A stretch of 43,605 nt of DNA from assembly GCA_003584895.1 (NCBI GenBank), contig QVQF01000099.1:1-43605 (forward strand). Reading direction: 5' to 3'. The notes below the pieces were generated by a model that saw nothing but the letters and a program-made list of their open reading frames with translations, was not told where the DNA came from and searched no databases. Numbering within the stretch: position 1 is the stretch's first letter; every line of letters starts with the position of its first letter. The position numbers and the translations under genes were made by a program. Source of the DNA: Methylococcales bacterium. GTDB lineage: Bacteria > Pseudomonadota > Gammaproteobacteria > Methylococcales > Methylomonadaceae. Below are positions 9,290-19,492 of this stretch, one piece after another.

Positions 9290-10336
9290 ATGACTAAGCC
9301 AAACACACATGATTACTTAATCATAGGCCAGGGCTTGGCTGGTAGCTTACTCGCTTGGGAGTTACTACAACGTGGCTGTAACGTCATGGTGATTGATAAT
9401 GGCCTAGAGAACGCTACCCAAGTGGCGGCAGGGCTGATTAATCCAGTGACGGGTATGCGCTTGGTAAAGTCTGCAGATGTCGAGCATTTATTGCCTAGCG
9501 CTATGCGCTGTTATGAGCAATTAAGTCAGTTCTTTAAGCAGGACTTTTATATAAAAAAGCCTATGCTTAGGCTGCTTAATAACGAGCTGTTATTAGCTAA
9601 TGCGCATAACCGCTTGGCTGATCCAGCTTATAGCGGCTATGTAAAGACCATCATAAATACCCCCGCTCACAGTTATTTAGAGCAACAACAAACCGGTTAT
9701 TTGCAGACGCGCTTATTATTAAGCTGCTTAAAGCAATACTTTATTGAGCGCGGTTGTTACCACCAAACCGCCGTGAATAATCAAGACATACAACTACTCC
9801 CTACTTTAAGCTGGCAGGATATGTCTTTTAAGAAAATACTCTTTTGTGAAGGTCATCACGCCACTTATAATCCTTGGTTTTCTTGGCTGCCCTTCCAACC
9901 CGTCAAAGGTGAAATCTTAACCTTGCAACTTCAAAGCCCGTTGCCTGATGTTATCTATAATTTCGGTGACTGGTTAATCCCTTTAGATAAGCAACGTATA
10001 CGACTGGGTGCTAGCTTTGACCGAGTGCATCTTAATACTGAACCTACTTCACAAGCTAAAACGGCTTTATTGCAGTCACTTAAACACAGTAGCCTTGATT
10101 TACCTGAACTATCTATCATTGATCATCAAGCTAACATTCGCCCTTGCACCTTAGATAAACAACCCTTTGTCGGTGAGCATCCCACGCTGCCTCAGCTTGC
10201 TATTTTTAACGGCTTTGGTGCTAAAGGTAGCTTACAAATACCTAAGCTTACCCAGCTTTTTGCTGATGCTTTACAGAACAACTGCCCCTATCCTTCTTCT
10301 ATAGATCGCTATTATGCAACGCATTTCCCTCATTAA
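9290..10336 (+). CDS. FAD-dependent oxidoreductase, DAO/MnmC-C-like
   Basis: Flavoprotein of the glycine/D-amino-acid oxidase (DAO) superfamily, 348 residues. The N-terminal Rossmann motif is IIGQGLAGSLLAWELLQRG, followed by VMVIDNG and an INPVTGMRLVKS segment, the family's equivalent of the Gly-rich FAD contact. A C-terminal GFGAKGS resembles the second FAD-binding motif of DAO enzymes. There is no signal peptide, so it is cytoplasmic. It overlaps the next gene, a YtqB/MnmM-type methyltransferase, by 23 bp, a strong sign of joint function. The MnmC C-terminal domain, which oxidises the carboxymethylaminomethyl group of tRNA uridine-34, belongs to the same superfamily. That substrate is an inference; amino-acid oxidation is the alternative. 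Confidence 0.85.
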   Translation: MTKPNTHDYLIIGQGLAGSLLAWELLQRGCNVMVIDNGLENATQVAAGLINPVTGMRLVKSADVEHLLPSAMRCYEQLSQFFKQDFYIKKPMLRLLNNELLLANAHNRLADPAYSGYVKTIINTPAHSYLEQQQTGYLQTRLLLSCLKQYFIERGCYHQTAVNNQDIQLLPTLSWQDMSFKKILFCEGHHATYNPWFSWLPFQPVKGEILTLQLQSPLPDVIYNFGDWLIPLDKQRIRLGASFDRVHLNTEPTSQAKTALLQSLKHSSLDLPELSIIDHQANIRPCTLDKQPFVGEHPTLPQLAIFNGFGAKGSLQIPKLTQLFADALQNNCPYPSSIDRYYATHFPH

Positions 10337-10880
10337 TATTGCCCATCAACATATCAGCGAAAGTCTTAAATCAGGTGACATTGCCATAGATGCTACCTTG
10401 GGCAATGGTCATGACGCCTTGTATCTAAAGAGTCTAGTGGGGGCTACAGGACTAGTCTTTGGTTTTGATATACAGTTAGCCGCAATTGCAGCAACACAAA
10501 GCAACAATGAGGATGCAACTGAACTTACCTTAATCCATGCCAGTCATGCGCTCATGGCTGAGAACATCCCTGTACAGCATCATGGCCACATTAATGCCAT
10601 TATGTTTAATCTGGGTTATTTACCGGGCGGTGATAAAAGTATTATTACGCAAACAGATACTACCTTATGCGCTTTAAACGCTGCCACAGCATTGCTGGCG
10701 GCTGATGGCATCATGACTATCATGGCTTATCCAGGCCATGCGGGTGGAGATTTAGAAACTGCACAGATAGAGCACTGGTGTGAGCATCTGAATAATTCAC
10801 ATTTTAGTTATCAGATAATCTACAGCACTGTAACTAGCGCTACTGCACCCAGGCTTTTCATCCTACGCAAGACACTTTGA
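10314..10880 (+). CDS. YtqB/MnmM-family class I SAM-dependent methyltransferase
   Basis: SAM-dependent methyltransferase of 188 residues, family rRNA_methylase/YtqB. The SAM-binding motif I is DATLGNGHDALYL (about residues 25-37), with an acidic motif II in FGFDIQ. The family's diagnostic FNLGYLPGGDKSI (about 101-113) is present, followed by TDTTLCAL. In Bacillus subtilis YtqB (MnmM) methylates 5-aminomethyl-2-thiouridine at tRNA position 34, a step done in E. coli by the MnmC N-terminal domain. Its start lies inside the preceding FAD oxidoreductase gene (23-bp overlap), so the two are co-translated. Family assignment is firm; the tRNA substrate here is inferred. Confidence 0.9.
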   Translation: MQRISLINIAHQHISESLKSGDIAIDATLGNGHDALYLKSLVGATGLVFGFDIQLAAIAATQSNNEDATELTLIHASHALMAENIPVQHHGHINAIMFNLGYLPGGDKSIITQTDTTLCALNAATALLAADGIMTIMAYPGHAGGDLETAQIEHWCEHLNNSHFSYQIIYSTVTSATAPRLFILRKTL

Positions 10881-10940: not shown

Positions 10941-11255
10941 ATGTCAGAATTTACGAATGTATCAGTCATCAAAAAAGCTAATGTCTATTTCGACGGTAAC
11001 GTGAGTAGCCGTACCATTCGTTTTGCTGATGGCTCTGTTAAAACCTTAGGTTTTATGTTGCCCGGTGAATATACTTTCAACACCGCTGATAAAGAACTGA
11101 TGGAAATATTAGCTGGTGAGCTTGAAGTTTTATTACCCGGTAACGATGAATGGCAAGCTATTAGCGGCGGTGAAGCTTTTGATGTACCTGCTAATGCGGC
11201 TTTCACTGTAAAAGTTAGTACTGCAACTGATTACTGCTGCTCTTTTATTAAATAG
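10941..11255 (+). CDS. ppnP: Pyrimidine/purine nucleoside phosphorylase PpnP
   Basis: Small cupin-fold enzyme (DUF1255, E. coli YaiE) that phosphorolyses several nucleosides to base and ribose-1-phosphate. The 104-residue length matches the family. Diagnostic strings are [19 protein letters not shown], a VLLPG turn followed by EWQ, and [13 protein letters not shown]. An AAGGA ribosome binding site stands just upstream of the ATG. It is followed after 3 bp by the NYN-domain gene, so the two probably form an operon. Confidence 0.96.
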
Positions 11256-11258
11256 TTC

Positions 11259-11732
11259 ATGGAAAAGGTCGCTATTTTTGTCGATGTACAAAATATTTAT
11301 TACACCACTAGACAAAGCTATAGCCGGCATTTTAATTACAGCGCCTTCTGGTCACTAGCGACAGCCAATAGAACCGTAGTTGCTGCTTTTGCCTACGCTA
11401 TTGATAAAGGCGATAGTCAGCAGTTAGGGTTTCAACAAATCCTTAGGCAAATAGGTTTTGAGGTCAAACTTAAACCTTATATTCAGCGCAGTGATGGCTC
11501 TGCAAAAGGCGATTGGGATGTCGGCATTACGCTCGATGCTATCGAATATGCAGAGCGAGCTGATGTCATTATTTTATTGTCAGGCGATGGTGACTTCGAT
11601 TTATTACTGAATAAAATACGTGATAAATATTCAGTGGATAGCGAAGTCTATGGTGTACAAGCTTTAACAGCGCCCTCGCTAATTAAAGCCGCTAACCGCT
11701 TTATTCCCATAGATGAAAACTTACTATTGTAA
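11259..11732 (+). CDS. NYN-domain (LabA/DUF88-like) putative ribonuclease
   Basis: PIN-like NYN-domain protein, 157 residues. The acidic residues expected to bind metal are visible: D9 in AIFVDVQNIYY, Asp in KGDWDVGITLDAIEYA, and the double Asp of LLSGDGDFDLLL. The C-terminus VQALTAPSLIKAANRFIPID is typical of LabA/YaiI-type NYN proteins. Proteins of this kind cleave RNA or act in regulation; the target here is unknown. It starts 3 bp after ppnP. It converges with the efflux operon, with only 9 bp between stop codons and no visible terminator, so antisense read-through is possible. Confidence 0.88.
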   Translation: MEKVAIFVDVQNIYYTTRQSYSRHFNYSAFWSLATANRTVVAAFAYAIDKGDSQQLGFQQILRQIGFEVKLKPYIQRSDGSAKGDWDVGITLDAIEYAERADVIILLSGDGDFDLLLNKIRDKYSVDSEVYGVQALTAPSLIKAANRFIPIDENLLL

Positions 11733-11741
11733 GTGACCCAC

Positions 11742-13247
11742 CTAATCAACGATGGGCACAGGCAAGAATTGTGACCACTTAACTTCTCCACCGGCCTGAT
11801 CTCTAGTCGGTAAAGCTTTACTATTCCAACCACCGCCCAAGGCTTTGGCTAATGACACCGCTGCTACCAAGCGTTGGCTTTGTAAATTAACGGCCGTAAT
11901 GTCATTAGAAAGCGCTGTGGTTTGATTAACAATAACGTTTAAATAACTGACCGTACCGGCTTGATATTGGTTAGTGGTGAGTTCTACGGCTTTATGCGCT
12001 GAGGCAACAGCTTTATCTTGCACTTGTACTTCTTCTTCTAAAATCCGTAGTGCCGCTAGATTATCTTCTACTTGCTGAAAACTCACCAACACCGCCTGCC
12101 TGTAACCTGCAACACTGGCATCATAAACATCTATCGCTTGTTGTAATTGTGCGCTACGGGCCCCTCCATCAAATAAAGGTATCGCTAATGCCGCTGGTCC
12201 TAAGGCCCAATAACGTGCGCCAGTATTCATTAAGTTAGATAAAATGTTTGTCTGTTGGCCATTAGACACGGCAAGATTTAAATTAGGGAAATAGGCCGCT
12301 TTAGCGACACCAATTTGTGCATTGGCTGCAGCTGCAGTACGCTCAGCCGCAGCGACATCGGGTCTACGTTCTAATAGTTCTGAAGGAAGACTGATCGGGA
12401 TTACAGGTATAATTGTATCAAAGGCGGCGATTTCAATCGTGAGTTCAGCCGGCGCTTTACCGATCAACACCGCAATCGCATGTTCGAGTTGTGCCCTTAG
12501 CACCCTAAGATTAATCATTTGCGCGCGGGTAGATTCTAGCTGGGTTTCAGCTAACACCACATCCGATTTAGCGGCTACACCCGCTATATAACGATTTTTA
12601 GTGATTAGTAAGGATTTATCATAAGCGGCTATCGTATCGCTCATCAGCTTTATTTGTGCATCTAAAGCCCGCAATTGAAAATAACTTTGCGCCAAGGATG
12701 CTTGAGAGCTTAAGCGTAAGGCTTGCAAAGTTGCAGCACTGCCTTGAGCACTATCTTCACTAGATTCAACTTGCCTACGCACGCCACCCCATAAATCAGG
12801 TGCCCATGCTGCACTAATTACCGCGCCAAATATGTAATTGACGCCTGGAACTGCTTTACTTTGGCCGCTCGCTGCTCTAAAACGGTTAACCGTGGCTGAT
12901 GCTTGTGCGGTAGGAAAATAAGCGGCAGCTGCACCTTGCACCATAGTCTGTGCTTGTTTATATTGCGCCTCGGCCTGAATGATCGATTGATTAGCCTTGT
13001 TGACCTGAACTTCTAAAGCACTAAGCTTTGCATCATGAAAAATTTCCCACCAATGATCGGGCAAAGCCTCGTCTTGGGGTTGGGCTTGCTTCCAACCTTT
13101 AACTTCTTTGAAAGTATCAGGAATACTAGTCGTGGGTAGCACATAATTAGGGCCTACCGTACAGGCGGCTAGCAATAAAAAAAAGCTAGTGATCAATAAC
13201 CGAATTAAAAATAGAGCCATAGGGTGTTTAACGAAGTTTAAATTCAT
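11742..13247 (-). CDS. NodT-family outer membrane efflux lipoprotein
   Basis: Outer-membrane channel of a tripartite RND pump. The 501-residue product has a lipoprotein signal with lipobox LAAC (Cys at about 29) and continues TVGPNY, the hallmark of NodT/OprM-type factors. Two OEP repeats follow, with conserved segments such as LPDHWWEIFHD, RRPDVAAAERTAAAANAQIGVAKAAYFPNL and VNQTTALSNDI. It is the last gene of the operon and starts 9 bp after the second permease. As the dedicated exit duct it should complete the MdtA/B/C-like assembly without needing TolC. Confidence 0.95.
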   Translation of the reverse strand: MNLNFVKHPMALFLIRLLITSFFLLLAACTVGPNYVLPTTSIPDTFKEVKGWKQAQPQDEALPDHWWEIFHDAKLSALEVQVNKANQSIIQAEAQYKQAQTMVQGAAAAYFPTAQASATVNRFRAASGQSKAVPGVNYIFGAVISAAWAPDLWGGVRRQVESSEDSAQGSAATLQALRLSSQASLAQSYFQLRALDAQIKLMSDTIAAYDKSLLITKNRYIAGVAAKSDVVLAETQLESTRAQMINLRVLRAQLEHAIAVLIGKAPAELTIEIAAFDTIIPVIPISLPSELLERRPDVAAAERTAAAANAQIGVAKAAYFPNLNLAVSNGQQTNILSNLMNTGARYWALGPAALAIPLFDGGARSAQLQQAIDVYDASVAGYRQAVLVSFQQVEDNLAALRILEEEVQVQDKAVASAHKAVELTTNQYQAGTVSYLNVIVNQTTALSNDITAVNLQSQRLVAAVSLAKALGGGWNSKALPTRDQAGGEVKWSQFLPVPIVD

Positions 13248-13256
13248 AGTGGGTAT

Positions 13257-16200
13257 TTAAAGACTGTCTATAGCGCTAGATAGCGGCTTAAGGTTATGAC
13301 GATTAAAGTGCTGCCTACACCAAGTTTGTAAGCGATCTAAATATAAATACACGATAGGCGTGGTATAAAGCGTTAACAACTGACTCAGTAGCAAGCCACC
13401 GACAATGGCAATGCCCAAAGGTTTCCGTAGCTCTGCGCCATAACCGGTACCTAAAGCCAAAGGCAAGGCCGCGAGTAAAGCGGCAAAGGTCGTCATCATA
13501 ATAGGTCGAAATCGCATAGAACAAGCGGTAAATATGGCCGTTTCAGGATTCATGCCCAAGGTACGCTCTGCATGTAAGGCAAAATCGATCATCATGATGG
13601 CATTCTTTTTAACAATACCAATCAGTAAAATAACACCTATCATGGCGATAATACTGAAATCAGTATCGCAAAGTAATAACGCTAAAATAGCACCTACACC
13701 AGCAGAAGGTAAGGTGGACAGGATGGTCAAGGGATGCACATAACTCTCGTATAAAATACCTAATACTATATAGATAGAAATCAAGGCCGCCAGAATCAGC
13801 CAAGGTTGATTCTTTAAAGATTGTTGAAAAGCTTTGGCTGTACCCTGAAAACTCCCGTGCATAGAAGCAGGCACACCTAAACTAGACATAGTATCGGTAA
13901 TAATCTGCGTTGCCTGTGATAAAGAAATGTCAGGCTTGAGATTAAAAGATAGTGTACCGGTAGGAAACTGACCTTGATGATTGACTGACAAAGGCGTATT
14001 GGTCACTCCGTAATGCGTAAAGGCTGATAAGGGCACCTGCCCTCCAGTTACAGCAGGTGCAATGGGCGCTACGCTGACATAAATATTCTTTAAAGCTTCA
14101 GAGCTTTGTGAATATTCAGGAGCAACCTCCATAATCACATGATATTGATTAAGCGGATTATAAATAACCGACACTTGCCTCTGACCAAAAGCGTTGTTAA
14201 GCGTCGCATCGATAAGCGCAGGGCTAACACCCAGTTGCGCAGCCGTTTGACGATCTATTTGTAACTCAATTTGTTGGCCTTTATCTTGTTGATTTGTATT
14301 AACGTCCACCAGCTCAGGATGCTGAGATAAAGCAGTGATAATCTTGGGCATCCAAGTGCGTAAATCAGATAGATGATCGGCTTGCAGCGCATATTCAAAC
14401 AAGGCAGAAGAGCCTCGGGCACCAATACGTAAATCTTGTGGGGGCTGTAAAATCAGTCTAGCACCAGGTTCATCGGATAATTTATGGCGTAAGCGCGCCA
14501 TGAGCTGATTAACAGTCAACTTACGTTCTTCCAAGGGTTTAAGAATGGCAAACATTTGTCCACTATTAGTATCGCGTTGTCCGCCAGTAAAACCAATAAC
14601 GGTTGCGACCTCTGGATCTTGACCTAGAACATCCACAAAATCGCCCAACTTTTTGCGCATAGCTTGCGAAGAAATACTTTGATCAGCCTGAATGGTGCCT
14701 GACAATCTACCGGTATCCTGAATAGGAAAAAAACCTTTAGGAACGATAGAATAGAGATAAACATTAAAGCCTATGGTCGCTAAGAGTAGCAACATCATTA
14801 TAGGACGATGGCGCAAAGCCCAATGTAAACTTCGTTCATAAGCGGATTGCCAGCTCTTAAGCCATTGCTCTATAGTCTGATAAAAGCTGTTGTGAGTATC
14901 TTTCTGTATCGGCTTTAGCCATAAGGCGCATAACATGGGTGTAGTGGTTAAAGATATCACCAACGACACTAAGACCGCCGCCGAAAGTGTCACTGCGAAT
15001 TCTTGAAACAAACGCCCAACAATACCCCCCATGAGTAAAATAGGGATAAACACCGCTATTAAAGACAAGCTCATGGTTAATACCGTAAAGCTGACTTCAC
15101 TAGCGCCTTTAATGGCCGCTTCATGAGGTGGCATACCTTGCTCTATATGGCGCTCAGTATTTTCTAACACCACAATGGCATCATCAACCACAAAGCCCGT
15201 AGCAATGGTCAGCGCCATTAACGATAGATTGTCCAAACTGTAATGACACAAATACATCACACCGAACGTACCAATTAAAGATACCGGCACGGTAATAATA
15301 GGAATCAGAGCCGAACGTAAATTACCTAAAAATAACAACACCACGCCGATAACTAGAACTACAGATATCAATAGGCTTAGCTCTACTTCATGTAAAGACT
15401 CTCGAATGGTGATAGATCTATCTAGCACCACTGATAAATTAATCGCATTGGGAATAGAGGCTTGTAGTTGCGGCAATAAAGCTTTCACCTTATCAACGGT
15501 TTCGATAATATTAGCGCCCGCTTGTTTGTTCAATATTAATAAGACTGAAGTTTTGCCATCTTTAAGCCCCGCAGCACGAATATCTTCCACCGAATCAACA
15601 ATAGAAGCTAAATCCGACAGATGTACTGGACTACCATTGCGATAAGCGACTATTAAAGGCAGATAATCCGCTGCCGTTTTCGCTTGGTCATTGGCATAAA
15701 TCAACCAATTATGCTGAGCATCTTCTAGGGCGCCTTTAGGCTGATTAACATTAGTCGCTGCAACAGCCAGACGTATCGCTTCAAAGCCAATACTATATTT
15801 AGTTAAGGCATTAGGATTAAGCTCTATCCTAACCGCAGGTAAGGAACTACCACCAACATTGACCTGCCCCATACCCTGCACTTGTGAAATCCTCTGCGCG
15901 AGAATAGTCGATGCGGCATCGTAAAGTTGGCCTCGAGTCATGGTGTCAGAGGTCAATGCCAAAATCATAATCGGCGAATCGGCTGGATTCACTTTCTTGT
16001 AACTTGGCCTGCTGGGCATGTTAGTGGGCAATAAGCGCAACGCAACATTAATGGCTGCTTGAACGTCTCTTGCTGCGCCATCAATATCGCGATCCAAATC
16101 AAACTGCAAGGTAATACTGGTACTGCCCACTGAACTAGACGAGGTCATTTCTGTGATGCCAGCAATATGACCCAAAGCCCGCTCTAAGGGCGTTGCTACT

Positions 16201-16385
16201 GATGTACCCATCGTTTCTGGGCTCGCACCGGGCATAGAGGCTTGCACTGAAATAGTGGGGAAATCAACTTGCGGCAGCGGAGCTACTGGTAATTGAAAAA
16301 AAGCAATCAGACCTGCCAACGTAACCGCCAATGTCAGCAGTGTGGTCGCAACTGGACGCGCAATAAAATAAGCCGACAGGCTCAC
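13257..16385 (-). CDS. mdtC: RND efflux permease, MdtC-like
   Basis: Proton-driven inner-membrane multidrug pump of the HAE-1 RND family, 1042 residues with 12 predicted membrane helices and two large periplasmic loops. It starts [20 protein letters not shown]. The transmembrane-4 proton-relay aspartates are D401/D402 in [13 protein letters not shown], and the lysine partner is in [35 protein letters not shown] and the [11 protein letters not shown] turn match MdtB/MdtC. Its ATG overlaps the stop of the preceding permease by four bases (ATGA), so the two are probably coupled and form a heterotrimer as in E. coli MdtBC. Confidence 0.93.
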
Positions 16386-19300
16386 GAGATATCCTTGTCT
16401 ATAAGGACAGCCTCTGGCACACTTTTACCTGACCATTGTCGACTTAAGCGGTCAAAAGCAAGGTAAATAACCGGCGTAGTAAATAAGGTCAACAACTGAC
16501 TGACGATTAAGCCACCCACCATGGTAATACCTAAAGGATGGCGCAGTTCTGAGCCCACGCCCGTGCCTAACATCAACGGCAGAGCACTGAGTAAAGCTGC
16601 CATCGTGGTCATCATAATCGGCCTAAAGCGTAATAAACAGGCCTGATAGATAGCGTCTCGCGGCGATTTACCTTGATTACGCTCAGCATCTAAGGCGAAA
16701 TCAATCATCATGATGGCATTTTTCTTAACAATGCCGATTAATAAGATAATGCCAATAATCCCGATGATACCTAAATCATTATTCGACAACATCAAGGCCA
16801 ATAAAGCACCTACACCGGCTGACGGCAAGGTCGAAAGGATAGTCACAGGATGTATATAACTTTCATACAACACACCTAAGACGATATAAACCGTGACAAT
16901 GGCGGCGAGTATCAGCCATAAGGTGCTCATCAACGAAGCGCTGAATGCCAAAGTGGTGCCTTGGTAATCAGCCTGCACACTTAAAGGTAATCCAATTTGC
17001 TGCTTGGTCTTTTCAATAGCGGCTATCGCATCACCCAAAGAAGCACCGGGGGCTAAATTAAAAGACAGCGTGGTGGCGGGAAATTGATCTAAATGCTGGG
17101 TCACTAAAGGCGTGCTTTGTTCCGTTACCGTCACTAAAGCCGATAACGGCACTTGTATGCCCGTTGACGTAGGAATACGTAAGGCTTTTAAATCATCCAA
17201 ACTTTGACGATATTCCGGCTTAACTTCAAGCACGACTCTATATTGATTCGATTGCGTGAAAATAGTCGAGACCAAGCGCTGACCATAAGCATCGTATAAG
17301 GCATTATCAATCGCAGCAATGCTGATGCCATAACGACTGGCGGTGCTACGATCTATAGCAACGTAAGCTTGCAAACCATGATCTTGAAGATCAGAGGCTA
17401 CATTGGCAAATTCAGCTTGTTTGGACAGTTCAGTGACCATGATAGAGGCCCAGTGACTTAAGGTCACTCTATCAGCAGACTGCAAAGTCATTTGATATTG
17501 ATTCCTACTAACCCGATTTTCTATAGTTAAATCCTGCATCGGCTGTAGATATAAAGAGATGCCCTCTATATCTGCTAATTTAGGCTGCAGTCTTCGGATA
17601 ATATCCATGACTTTAATGCCACGCTCGGCCAGCGGCTTTAAGGTAATAGTGACCCGTCCGGCATTTAAGGTAGGATTAGCGCCATCCACACCAATAAACG
17701 ACGACACACTCTCCACAGCGGAATCTTCCAATAATACCTTGGTTAAGGCTTGCTGACGCTCAGACATGGCAGCAAAGGAAATGCTTTGCGGGGCTTCCGA
17801 AATACCTTGGATAACGCCCGTATCTTGGATAGGGAAAAAGCCTTTAGGCACTAGCATATACAGCAATACCGTCAGGACCATCGTAGTCGCAGCAACTACC
17901 AAGGTGGCACGCTGATGTTCTAATACCCAATCTAATAGCTTGGCGTAATAGGCCGTTACACGATCTAAAAATTGTCCGCTAACGATATAAAAACGATCTT
18001 TTTGTTGCTTATGATGCGGGCGCAGCATTTTTGCGCACATCATCGGTGTTAAGGTCAGAGAAATTAACGCTGAAATTAAGATGGCTACCGCTAGCGTGAT
18101 AGCAAATTCACGAAATAAGCGGCCAACGACATCGCCCATAAACAATAGCGGAATCAGCACGGCAATCAGCGAGAAGGTCAGGGAAATAATAGTAAAGGCA
18201 ATTTGTTCAGAACCTTTAAGCGCAGCGTTTAAAGGTGTTTCACCTTTTTCTATGTAACGGGTAATGTTTTCGATCACCACAATAGCATCATCAACTACAA
18301 AACCAGCAGCAATAGTCAGCGCCATCAAGGTTAAATTGTTAATACTAAAGCCAGCTAAATACATAACCGCGAAAGTGCCAATTAATGATAAGGGCACGAC
18401 GATGCCCGGTATGGCGGTAGCATAAGCATTACGCAAAAATAGAAATATCACCAGCACCACTAAGACTAAGGCCAGCAGTAGTTCAATTTGTACATCGTCT
18501 ACGGAAGCACGAATAGTGGTGGTGCGATCCGTTAATATGGCGACATCCAAACCCGTAGGCAAGGATTCTTGCAATTTAGGCAACAGTTCTTTGATTCTAT
18601 CGACCACTTCAATAACATTAGTGCCTGGTTGTCGCTGAATATTGACAATCACTGCTGCCGTGCCATTGGCCCAAGCCGCTAATCTGACATTTTCAGCATC
18701 GTTACTGGCTTCTGCCACATCTGATAACAACACGGGCCTGCCACTGCGATAAGCAATAACTAAAGCACTATAATCTGAAGCCGATCGGATCTGATCATTA
18801 GCATCAATAATAGCCGAACGCGTGGCCCCATCAAACATACCCTTAGGTTGATTGACATTAGCATTAGAAATAGCGGTACGTAAATCTTCCAGACTTAATC
18901 CGTAAGCCGCTAATGCTGAGGGTATCGCTTGAATACGCACGGCAGGTCTTTGACCACCGCTGATAGTCACCAGCCCTACCCCCGATAATTGCGATAACTT
19001 TTGTGCTAAACGGGTATCAACTAAATCTTCGACTTTGGTCAGCGGCAGTATTTTCGAACTCACCGCTAAGGTGAGTATAGGCGCATCAGCTGGATTTATT
19101 TTGCTGTACACGGGCGGCATGGGCAGATCGCTAGGCAAATAATTAGTGGCGGCATTAATCGCCGCCTGTACTTCTTGTTCTGCAATATCTAAGCTTAAAT
19201 TCAAATTAAACTGCAGGGTAATTACCGAAGCGCCACCTGAACTAGACGATGACATCTGATTCAAGCCCGGCAATTGACCTAGCTGACGTTCCAACGGTGA

Positions 19301-19492
19301 AGTCACCAATGACGTCATCACTTCTTGACTGGCACCCGGATATAAAGTTACCACCTGTATAGTCGGATAATCAACCTGAGGTAACGCTGAAATCGGCAAC
19401 TCGCGGTAAGCCAATAAGCCTACCAGCAACAAGGCCAGCATTAATAAAGATGTGGCAACTGGACGCAGAATAAAGAGCTTAGAAGGATTCAT
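16382..19492 (-). CDS. mdtB: RND efflux permease, MdtB-like
   Basis: First of two RND permeases, 1036 residues. The N-terminus [20 protein letters not shown] and the periplasmic [18 protein letters not shown] are characteristic of MdtB. The proton-relay pair D401/D402 lies in [13 protein letters not shown], and [20 protein letters not shown] carries the conserved lysine. E. coli MdtB and MdtC form a mixed trimer exporting bile salts and novobiocin; a similar mixed pump is inferred from the tandem genes. The 127-bp gap to the upstream adaptor holds a double-hairpin repeat, which may reduce or segment expression of the permeases relative to the adaptor. Confidence 0.93.

Follow-up and report, generated by a model that had tools for sequence, protein, structure and literature searches.

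An FAD-dependent oxidase gene overlapping the gene for MnmM in a Methylococcales genome: a probable two-gene counterpart of E. coli MnmC

Can a bacterium finish the tRNA modification mnm5(s2)U34 with two separate proteins in place of the bifunctional MnmC of E. coli? The question is raised by two overlapping genes in the window, which is the whole stretch of 43,605 nucleotides of DNA that was analysed, from a methane-oxidising bacterium of the Methylococcales. The first gene (9290–10336, forward strand) encodes an FAD-dependent oxidase of the DAO fold with 348 amino acids, a candidate cmnm5(s2)U34-tRNA deglycylating oxidase. The second (10314–10880, forward strand) encodes an MnmM of the YtqB family with 188 amino acids, the putative nm5(s2)U34-tRNA methyltransferase. 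The start of the MnmM gene lies within the 3’ end of the oxidase gene, and the two share 23 bp (10314–10336, forward strand). The initial annotation had read the locus as a DAO-superfamily oxidoreductase overlapping a YtqB/MnmM-type methyltransferase by this distance, and the ORF coordinates and profile scores agree with that reading. No clear ribosome-binding site was seen by eye in the bases ahead of the MnmM ATG, and translation of the two genes may be coupled.

The MnmM protein of the window scores 186.2 bits against the equivalog model NF053511 (cut-off 135), which at E<=1e-15 matched only B. subtilis and Lactococcus among 14 control genomes. It also aligns to the solved YtqB/MnmM structures (8h0s, E=1.3e-34). 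The B. subtilis enzyme is reported to methylate nm5(s2)U34, and changes at D34, N101, Y104, K110, Y141 and H144 are reported to abolish its activity or nearly so (PMC9976899). The window protein has the identical residues at all six of these positions (D34, N99, Y102, K108, Y139 and H142), out of seven mutation-tested positions that were examined. Asn99, the equivalent of the proposed general base N101, is encoded at 10608–10610 (forward strand). Within an alignment of 26 MnmM rows, the equivalents of D34, N101 and Y141 are present in every row, that of H144 in 25, that of Y104 in 23 and that of K110 in 16. A search of a plasmid collection matched 8 records with MnmM and none with the oxidase at E<=1e-20.

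The assembly that contains the window (as contig 9) is 2.62 Mb in 235 contigs and is 96.41% complete. It encodes MnmG (926 bits), with rsmG as the next gene after mnmG; the stretch ahead of mnmG on the same contig lacks a long open reading frame in any of the three forward frames. The methylase domain of MnmC, PF05430 (MnmC2), has zero matches across this 96.4% complete genome, while the same profile matches 8 of the 14 control genomes, including E. coli and not B. subtilis. The initial annotation had proposed a search for mnmG, which is there, and had held that a complete bifunctional mnmC elsewhere in the genome would speak against the pair; such a gene was looked for and not found in the assembly.

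PF05430 was also searched in 276 genomes of the class, each at least 90% complete. Matches of at least 45 bits were found in 63 of them and in none of the 22 that have MnmM (Fisher p=0.003). Weak matches in two MnmM genomes, G001 (23.6 bits) and G226 (24.7 bits), were spermidine-synthase-like on checking, and there is no credible MnmC2 in the 22 genomes. Nor was MnmC2 found at E<=1e-8 in any of the 121 genomes sampled from the order.

The oxidase gene lies directly upstream of the MnmM gene in 20 of the 22 class genomes in which MnmM is above its cut-off, representing 13 of 14 families. (A further piece of MnmM at a contig end in G240, with 89.7 bits, is under the cut-off and was left out of the 22.) All 20 pairs overlap if each ORF is taken to begin at its first possible start codon. 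The oxidase profile, which was built in part from the same pair-family proteins that it finds, gave at least 344 bits in 21 of the 276 class genomes, with a next best score of 119.6 bits, and 20 of these 21 genomes also have MnmM. The exceptions run in both directions. Two genomes of one genus (G138 and G236) have MnmM with no oxidase of the family anywhere in the genome (best score about 62 bits), and one genome (G031) has the oxidase with no detected MnmM.

In the sample of 121 genomes from the order, MnmM is found in 60 and the oxidase in 66; the latter count leaves out one of the 67 matches that passed E<=1e-25, which was a ThiO (G348). Every one of the 60 MnmM genomes has the oxidase. The two genes are on the same strand and within 172 bp of each other in 55 of these genomes. 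They are unlinked in the other five, four of which are from one genus (G387, G293, G342 and G371), and other genes sit upstream of MnmM in all five. The remaining six genomes have an oxidase with no detected MnmM: G381, G286, G299, G332 and G319, the last two with the oxidase at a contig end, and G323, with only a fragment. The genes upstream at the G381 locus include a weakly RecF/AAA-like one.

Co-occurrence of the oxidase and MnmM gave Fisher p values of 4e-27 among the 276 class genomes and 5e-28 in the order, values that ignore shared ancestry and linkage; since related genomes are not independent, they show merely that the association is not one of chance. The adjacency of the oxidase and MnmM genes is not due to chance.

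A wider sample of 397 genomes from the phylum had MnmM in 24, of which 21 belong to a single family outside the class. The arrangement within this family is varied: 4 genomes have the oxidase and MnmM fused in a single ORF, 13 have adjacent genes, in 3 a single gene separates the two, and one (G477) shows no oxidase within the 7 kb examined. The three genomes with an intervening gene (G397, G515 and G500) are of one genus. The fusion ORFs are 551, 563, 580 and 570 amino acids long, and only 6–8 residues separate the two profile envelopes. In all four, the N-terminal part is above the cut-off of Pfam DAO and the C-terminal part above that of MnmM. On a quick tree, in which one fused row is a long, weakly placed branch, the fused state needs two changes, which suggests that the oxidase and MnmM were fused twice.

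The other three MnmM genomes of the phylum sample are that of the window itself and two class members (G742 and G487), neither of which has such an oxidase near MnmM. MnmM was also seen in a Neisseria record. Its presence in G742, G487, G138, G236 and the Neisseria record possibly reflects separate transfers. Since MnmM occurs without the oxidase alongside in G138, G236, G742, G487 and G477, it does not need this partner.

The family of the oxidase is less simple to assign. It passes the Pfam DAO model (PF01266) with 81.6 bits (cut-off 27.9). Its best NCBIfam match is the ThiO model TIGR02352, which it fails with 96.4 bits against a cut-off of 250.8, and it also fails the MnmC(o) model TIGR03197 (MnmC_Cterm), with 66.9 bits against a cut-off of 174.2. 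That it falls below both cut-offs and scores higher on ThiO speaks against an MnmC-like reading. Known members of the two families score far higher: all 8 MnmC proteins compared pass TIGR03197 (275–470 bits), and 10 of 11 ThiO proteins pass TIGR02352 (270–299 bits), the remaining one scoring 244.2. A profile search of solved structures with the oxidase put glycine oxidases at the top and MnmC (3awi) sixth of 12. A structure prediction from 7 sequences had a mean pLDDT of 58, too low for use.

The oxidase was compared with these families in 48 rows, made up of 29 pair-family oxidases, 8 MnmC(o) (from 8 genomes picked among the 63 of the class that have an MnmC2 match) and 11 ThiO (chosen from a longer list of weaker DAO matches). 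The three sets form three groups in a tree, each with 100% of 200 bootstraps; the tree is unrooted, and the sister relation among the groups is undefined in it. The active-site arginines of ThiO are Arg302 and Arg329, and their positions agree with the alignment to 3if9. The equivalent of Arg302 is an arginine in all 29 pair-family, 8 MnmC(o) and 11 ThiO rows; in the window oxidase it is Arg284 (codon at 10139–10141, forward strand). The Arg329 region differs. ThiO has RNG in 10 of 11 rows and QNG in one, MnmC(o) has [SA]RG in 7 of 8 rows and SRA in one, and the pair family has [SAG][KR]G in 29 of 29. The window oxidase is without RNG and reads A-K-G here (Gly310-Ala311-Lys312-Gly313, codons at 10217–10228, forward strand), and it matches the MnmC(o) motif [SA]-R-G, which comes from this comparison and not from a published definition, only if K is counted as R.

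The oxidase thus shares with ThiO the fold, the FAD-site motifs, the Arg302 equivalent and the top solved-structure matches, but it differs in falling below the ThiO cut-off, in having A or S and then K or R at the Arg329 position, and in its separate tree group. The median pI is 8.5 in the pair family (n=29) and 8.4 in MnmC(o) (n=8), and 6.0 in ThiO (n=11); the window oxidase itself, with a pI of 7.2, is not basic. Named relatives of the oxidase were found at 6 loci, in two Methylococcaceae MAGs, Crenothrix polyspora, a Methylococcales MAG, a Bathymodiolus symbiont and Methyloprofundus. In the last two the oxidase gene is without MnmM alongside.

We consider it very probable that the overlapping pair is a divided equivalent of E. 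coli MnmC, assembled independently of it, which finishes mnm5(s2)U34. MnmE–MnmG would make cmnm5(s2)U34 on tRNAs. The flavoenzyme would then oxidise the glycine C-alpha–N bond of the carboxymethylaminomethyl group to an imine, and hydrolysis of the imine would release glyoxylate and leave nm5(s2)U34. MnmM, with SAM, would methylate the amine of nm5(s2)U34 to give mnm5(s2)U34. MnmC1 is described as having a glycine-oxidase-like structure and an analogous reaction, with an imine route proposed (PMC3648344). The natural fusions, and the fact that unlinked genomes keep both genes, argue that the two proteins act in consecutive steps; the substrate of the oxidase, its reaction, the sequence of the steps and the end product in the organism of the window are inferred. 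Counting against this reading, besides the profile scores, are the rank of glycine oxidases ahead of MnmC among solved structures, the genomes in which either gene occurs without the other, the pI of 7.2 of the window oxidase, the H at the K11 position of its MnmM, and the TIGR01212 matches in 5 of the 22 MnmM genomes of the class. The idea of a two-gene stand-in for MnmC, put forward in the initial annotation, is supported by the presence of mnmG, the lack of an MnmC2 match, the conserved pairing, the unlinked retention and the fusions.

The strongest of the alternatives, though an unlikely one, is that MnmM works alone on nm5(s2)U34 made by MnmE–MnmG with ammonium, and that the oxidase is a small-molecule enzyme of the glycine/sarcosine type, perhaps one that supplies the ammonium, with the two genes linked for supply or regulation. 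B. subtilis ytqB by itself is reported to restore mnm5s2U in an E. coli delta-mnmC strain (PMC9976899), and the five genomes in which MnmM has no oxidase alongside fit this. So do the ThiO model as best NCBIfam match of the oxidase (far under the cut-off) and the glycine oxidases as its best solved relatives. However, the fusions and the unlinked retention argue for consecutive steps, all 29 pair-family rows carry a motif like that of MnmC(o) where ThiO has R-N-G, and a separate fragment resembling ThiO (103.9 bits, ~100 residues) is found in the genome of the window, at the edge of contig 47.

Less likely still is a shift of substrate, in which the target of the oxidase is a different tRNA nucleoside or a different substrate near U34, and the MnmM of the window is a relative with a changed target. 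This reading is favoured by K11, the seventh mutation-tested position. In B. subtilis MnmM, K11 is reported to contact U33, and K11E to be nearly inactive (PMC9976899). The position is H in the window MnmM and in 21 of the 26 rows, a mapping that assumes no gap, as the alignment begins at residue 17. The oxidase family, too, has invariant residues of its own, such as C186 and N307. Against this, the equivalents of the other six tested residues are present in all or most of the 26 rows, the NF053511 equivalog cut-off is passed, and no credible MnmC2 is found in the 22 MnmM genomes of the class. That the oxidase is simply the ThiO of the cell, serving thiamin synthesis and beside MnmM by chance, is hardly credible: TIGR02352 is its best NCBIfam match, but the score is far under the cut-off, the motif differs, the 11 ThiO proteins of related genomes form a separate group, a separate ThiO-like fragment lies on contig 47, and pairing with MnmM extends over 13 families and to fusions.

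If the overlapping genes are a counterpart of MnmC, how do they relate to the route of Gram-positive bacteria, the group from which MnmM is best known? In the one Bacillota region that was examined, from Anoxybacillus, a radical-SAM gene of the TIGR01212 family is directly upstream of MnmM with a 4-bp overlap, and a Listeria record in the plasmid collection has the TIGR01212 family listed beneath its MnmM match. Jaroch et al. (J Bacteriol, 2024) are said to have identified MnmL as YtqA, a radical-SAM protein. A table in a review refers to this work (PMC12548931). The earlier view that MnmL is the DAO-type YurR was not borne out, the partner of MnmM in Anoxybacillus being the TIGR01212 protein. 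The window locus resembles the Gram-positive pair of YtqA and YtqB in having MnmM with a partner gene directly upstream and overlapping it, and differs in that a flavoenzyme takes the same place in the operon as the radical-SAM partner of Anoxybacillus.

Matches to TIGR01212 in the genome of the window are weak, at 26.4 and 20.9 bits, both under the cut-off of 180. At E<=1e-20 the family is found in 5 of the 22 MnmM genomes of the class (in G059 as a partial match at a contig end) and in 43 of the 254 others, with no association; the other 17 MnmM genomes lack it at this threshold. A match to TIGR01212 is not proof of MnmL in any case, since the family is also matched in E. coli. Of the Gram-positive-like route proposed in the initial annotation, the methylase, MnmM, holds and the oxidase does not, as it is a DAO flavoenzyme in a genome where TIGR01212 stays below its cut-off. 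The use of MnmM with an MnmC(o)/ThiO-like flavoenzyme instead of a radical-SAM partner makes this a hybrid route.

Relative to E. coli MnmC, the same two steps are proposed for the window pair, and the FAD oxidases share the DAO/ThiO fold and an [SA]-[RK]-G motif. The methylase is MnmC2 there and MnmM here, the two activities are in one bifunctional protein there and in separate overlapping genes here, and the pair-family oxidase forms its own group in the tree. The order of the domains is also reversed. E. coli MnmC is described as having the methylase first and the oxidase second (PMC3648344), and the methylase is first in all 8 MnmC proteins compared, whereas the oxidase is N-terminal in the oxidase–MnmM fusions. 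It is likely that a second MnmC evolved independently in these bacteria, from a distinct family of FAD oxidases and MnmM, as an overlapping pair and then, apparently, as two fusions of reverse order.

If true, this would supply, in the bacteria concerned, the missing MnmC(o)-like activity that Cho et al. 2023 left open for organisms with MnmM. Deglycylation would then be carried out by three or more enzymes that are dissimilar or were recruited separately: MnmC(o), the radical-SAM protein and the pair-family oxidase. The latter is a candidate oxidase for the Pseudomonadota that have MnmM, for which the natural fusions give the strongest hint from genomes, and the system would clearly illustrate how one methylase can exchange its partners. 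A literature search covering titles and abstract openings turned up no mention of a flavoenzyme partner of MnmM. The abstract of Jaroch et al. (2024) reportedly mentions fusion proteins and alternate arrangements, and that paper may already describe the oxidase–MnmM arrangement.

In the window, a CstA-family gene is upstream of the pair. Downstream of MnmM and on its strand (10941–11732) are a gene of the Ppnp (pyrimidine/purine nucleoside phosphorylase) family and one with an NYN domain. There are no known tRNA-modification genes among these neighbours. Beyond them, a tandem pair of AcrB-family (RND) pump genes occupies 11742–19492, with a gene for an outer-membrane efflux protein downstream on the same strand.
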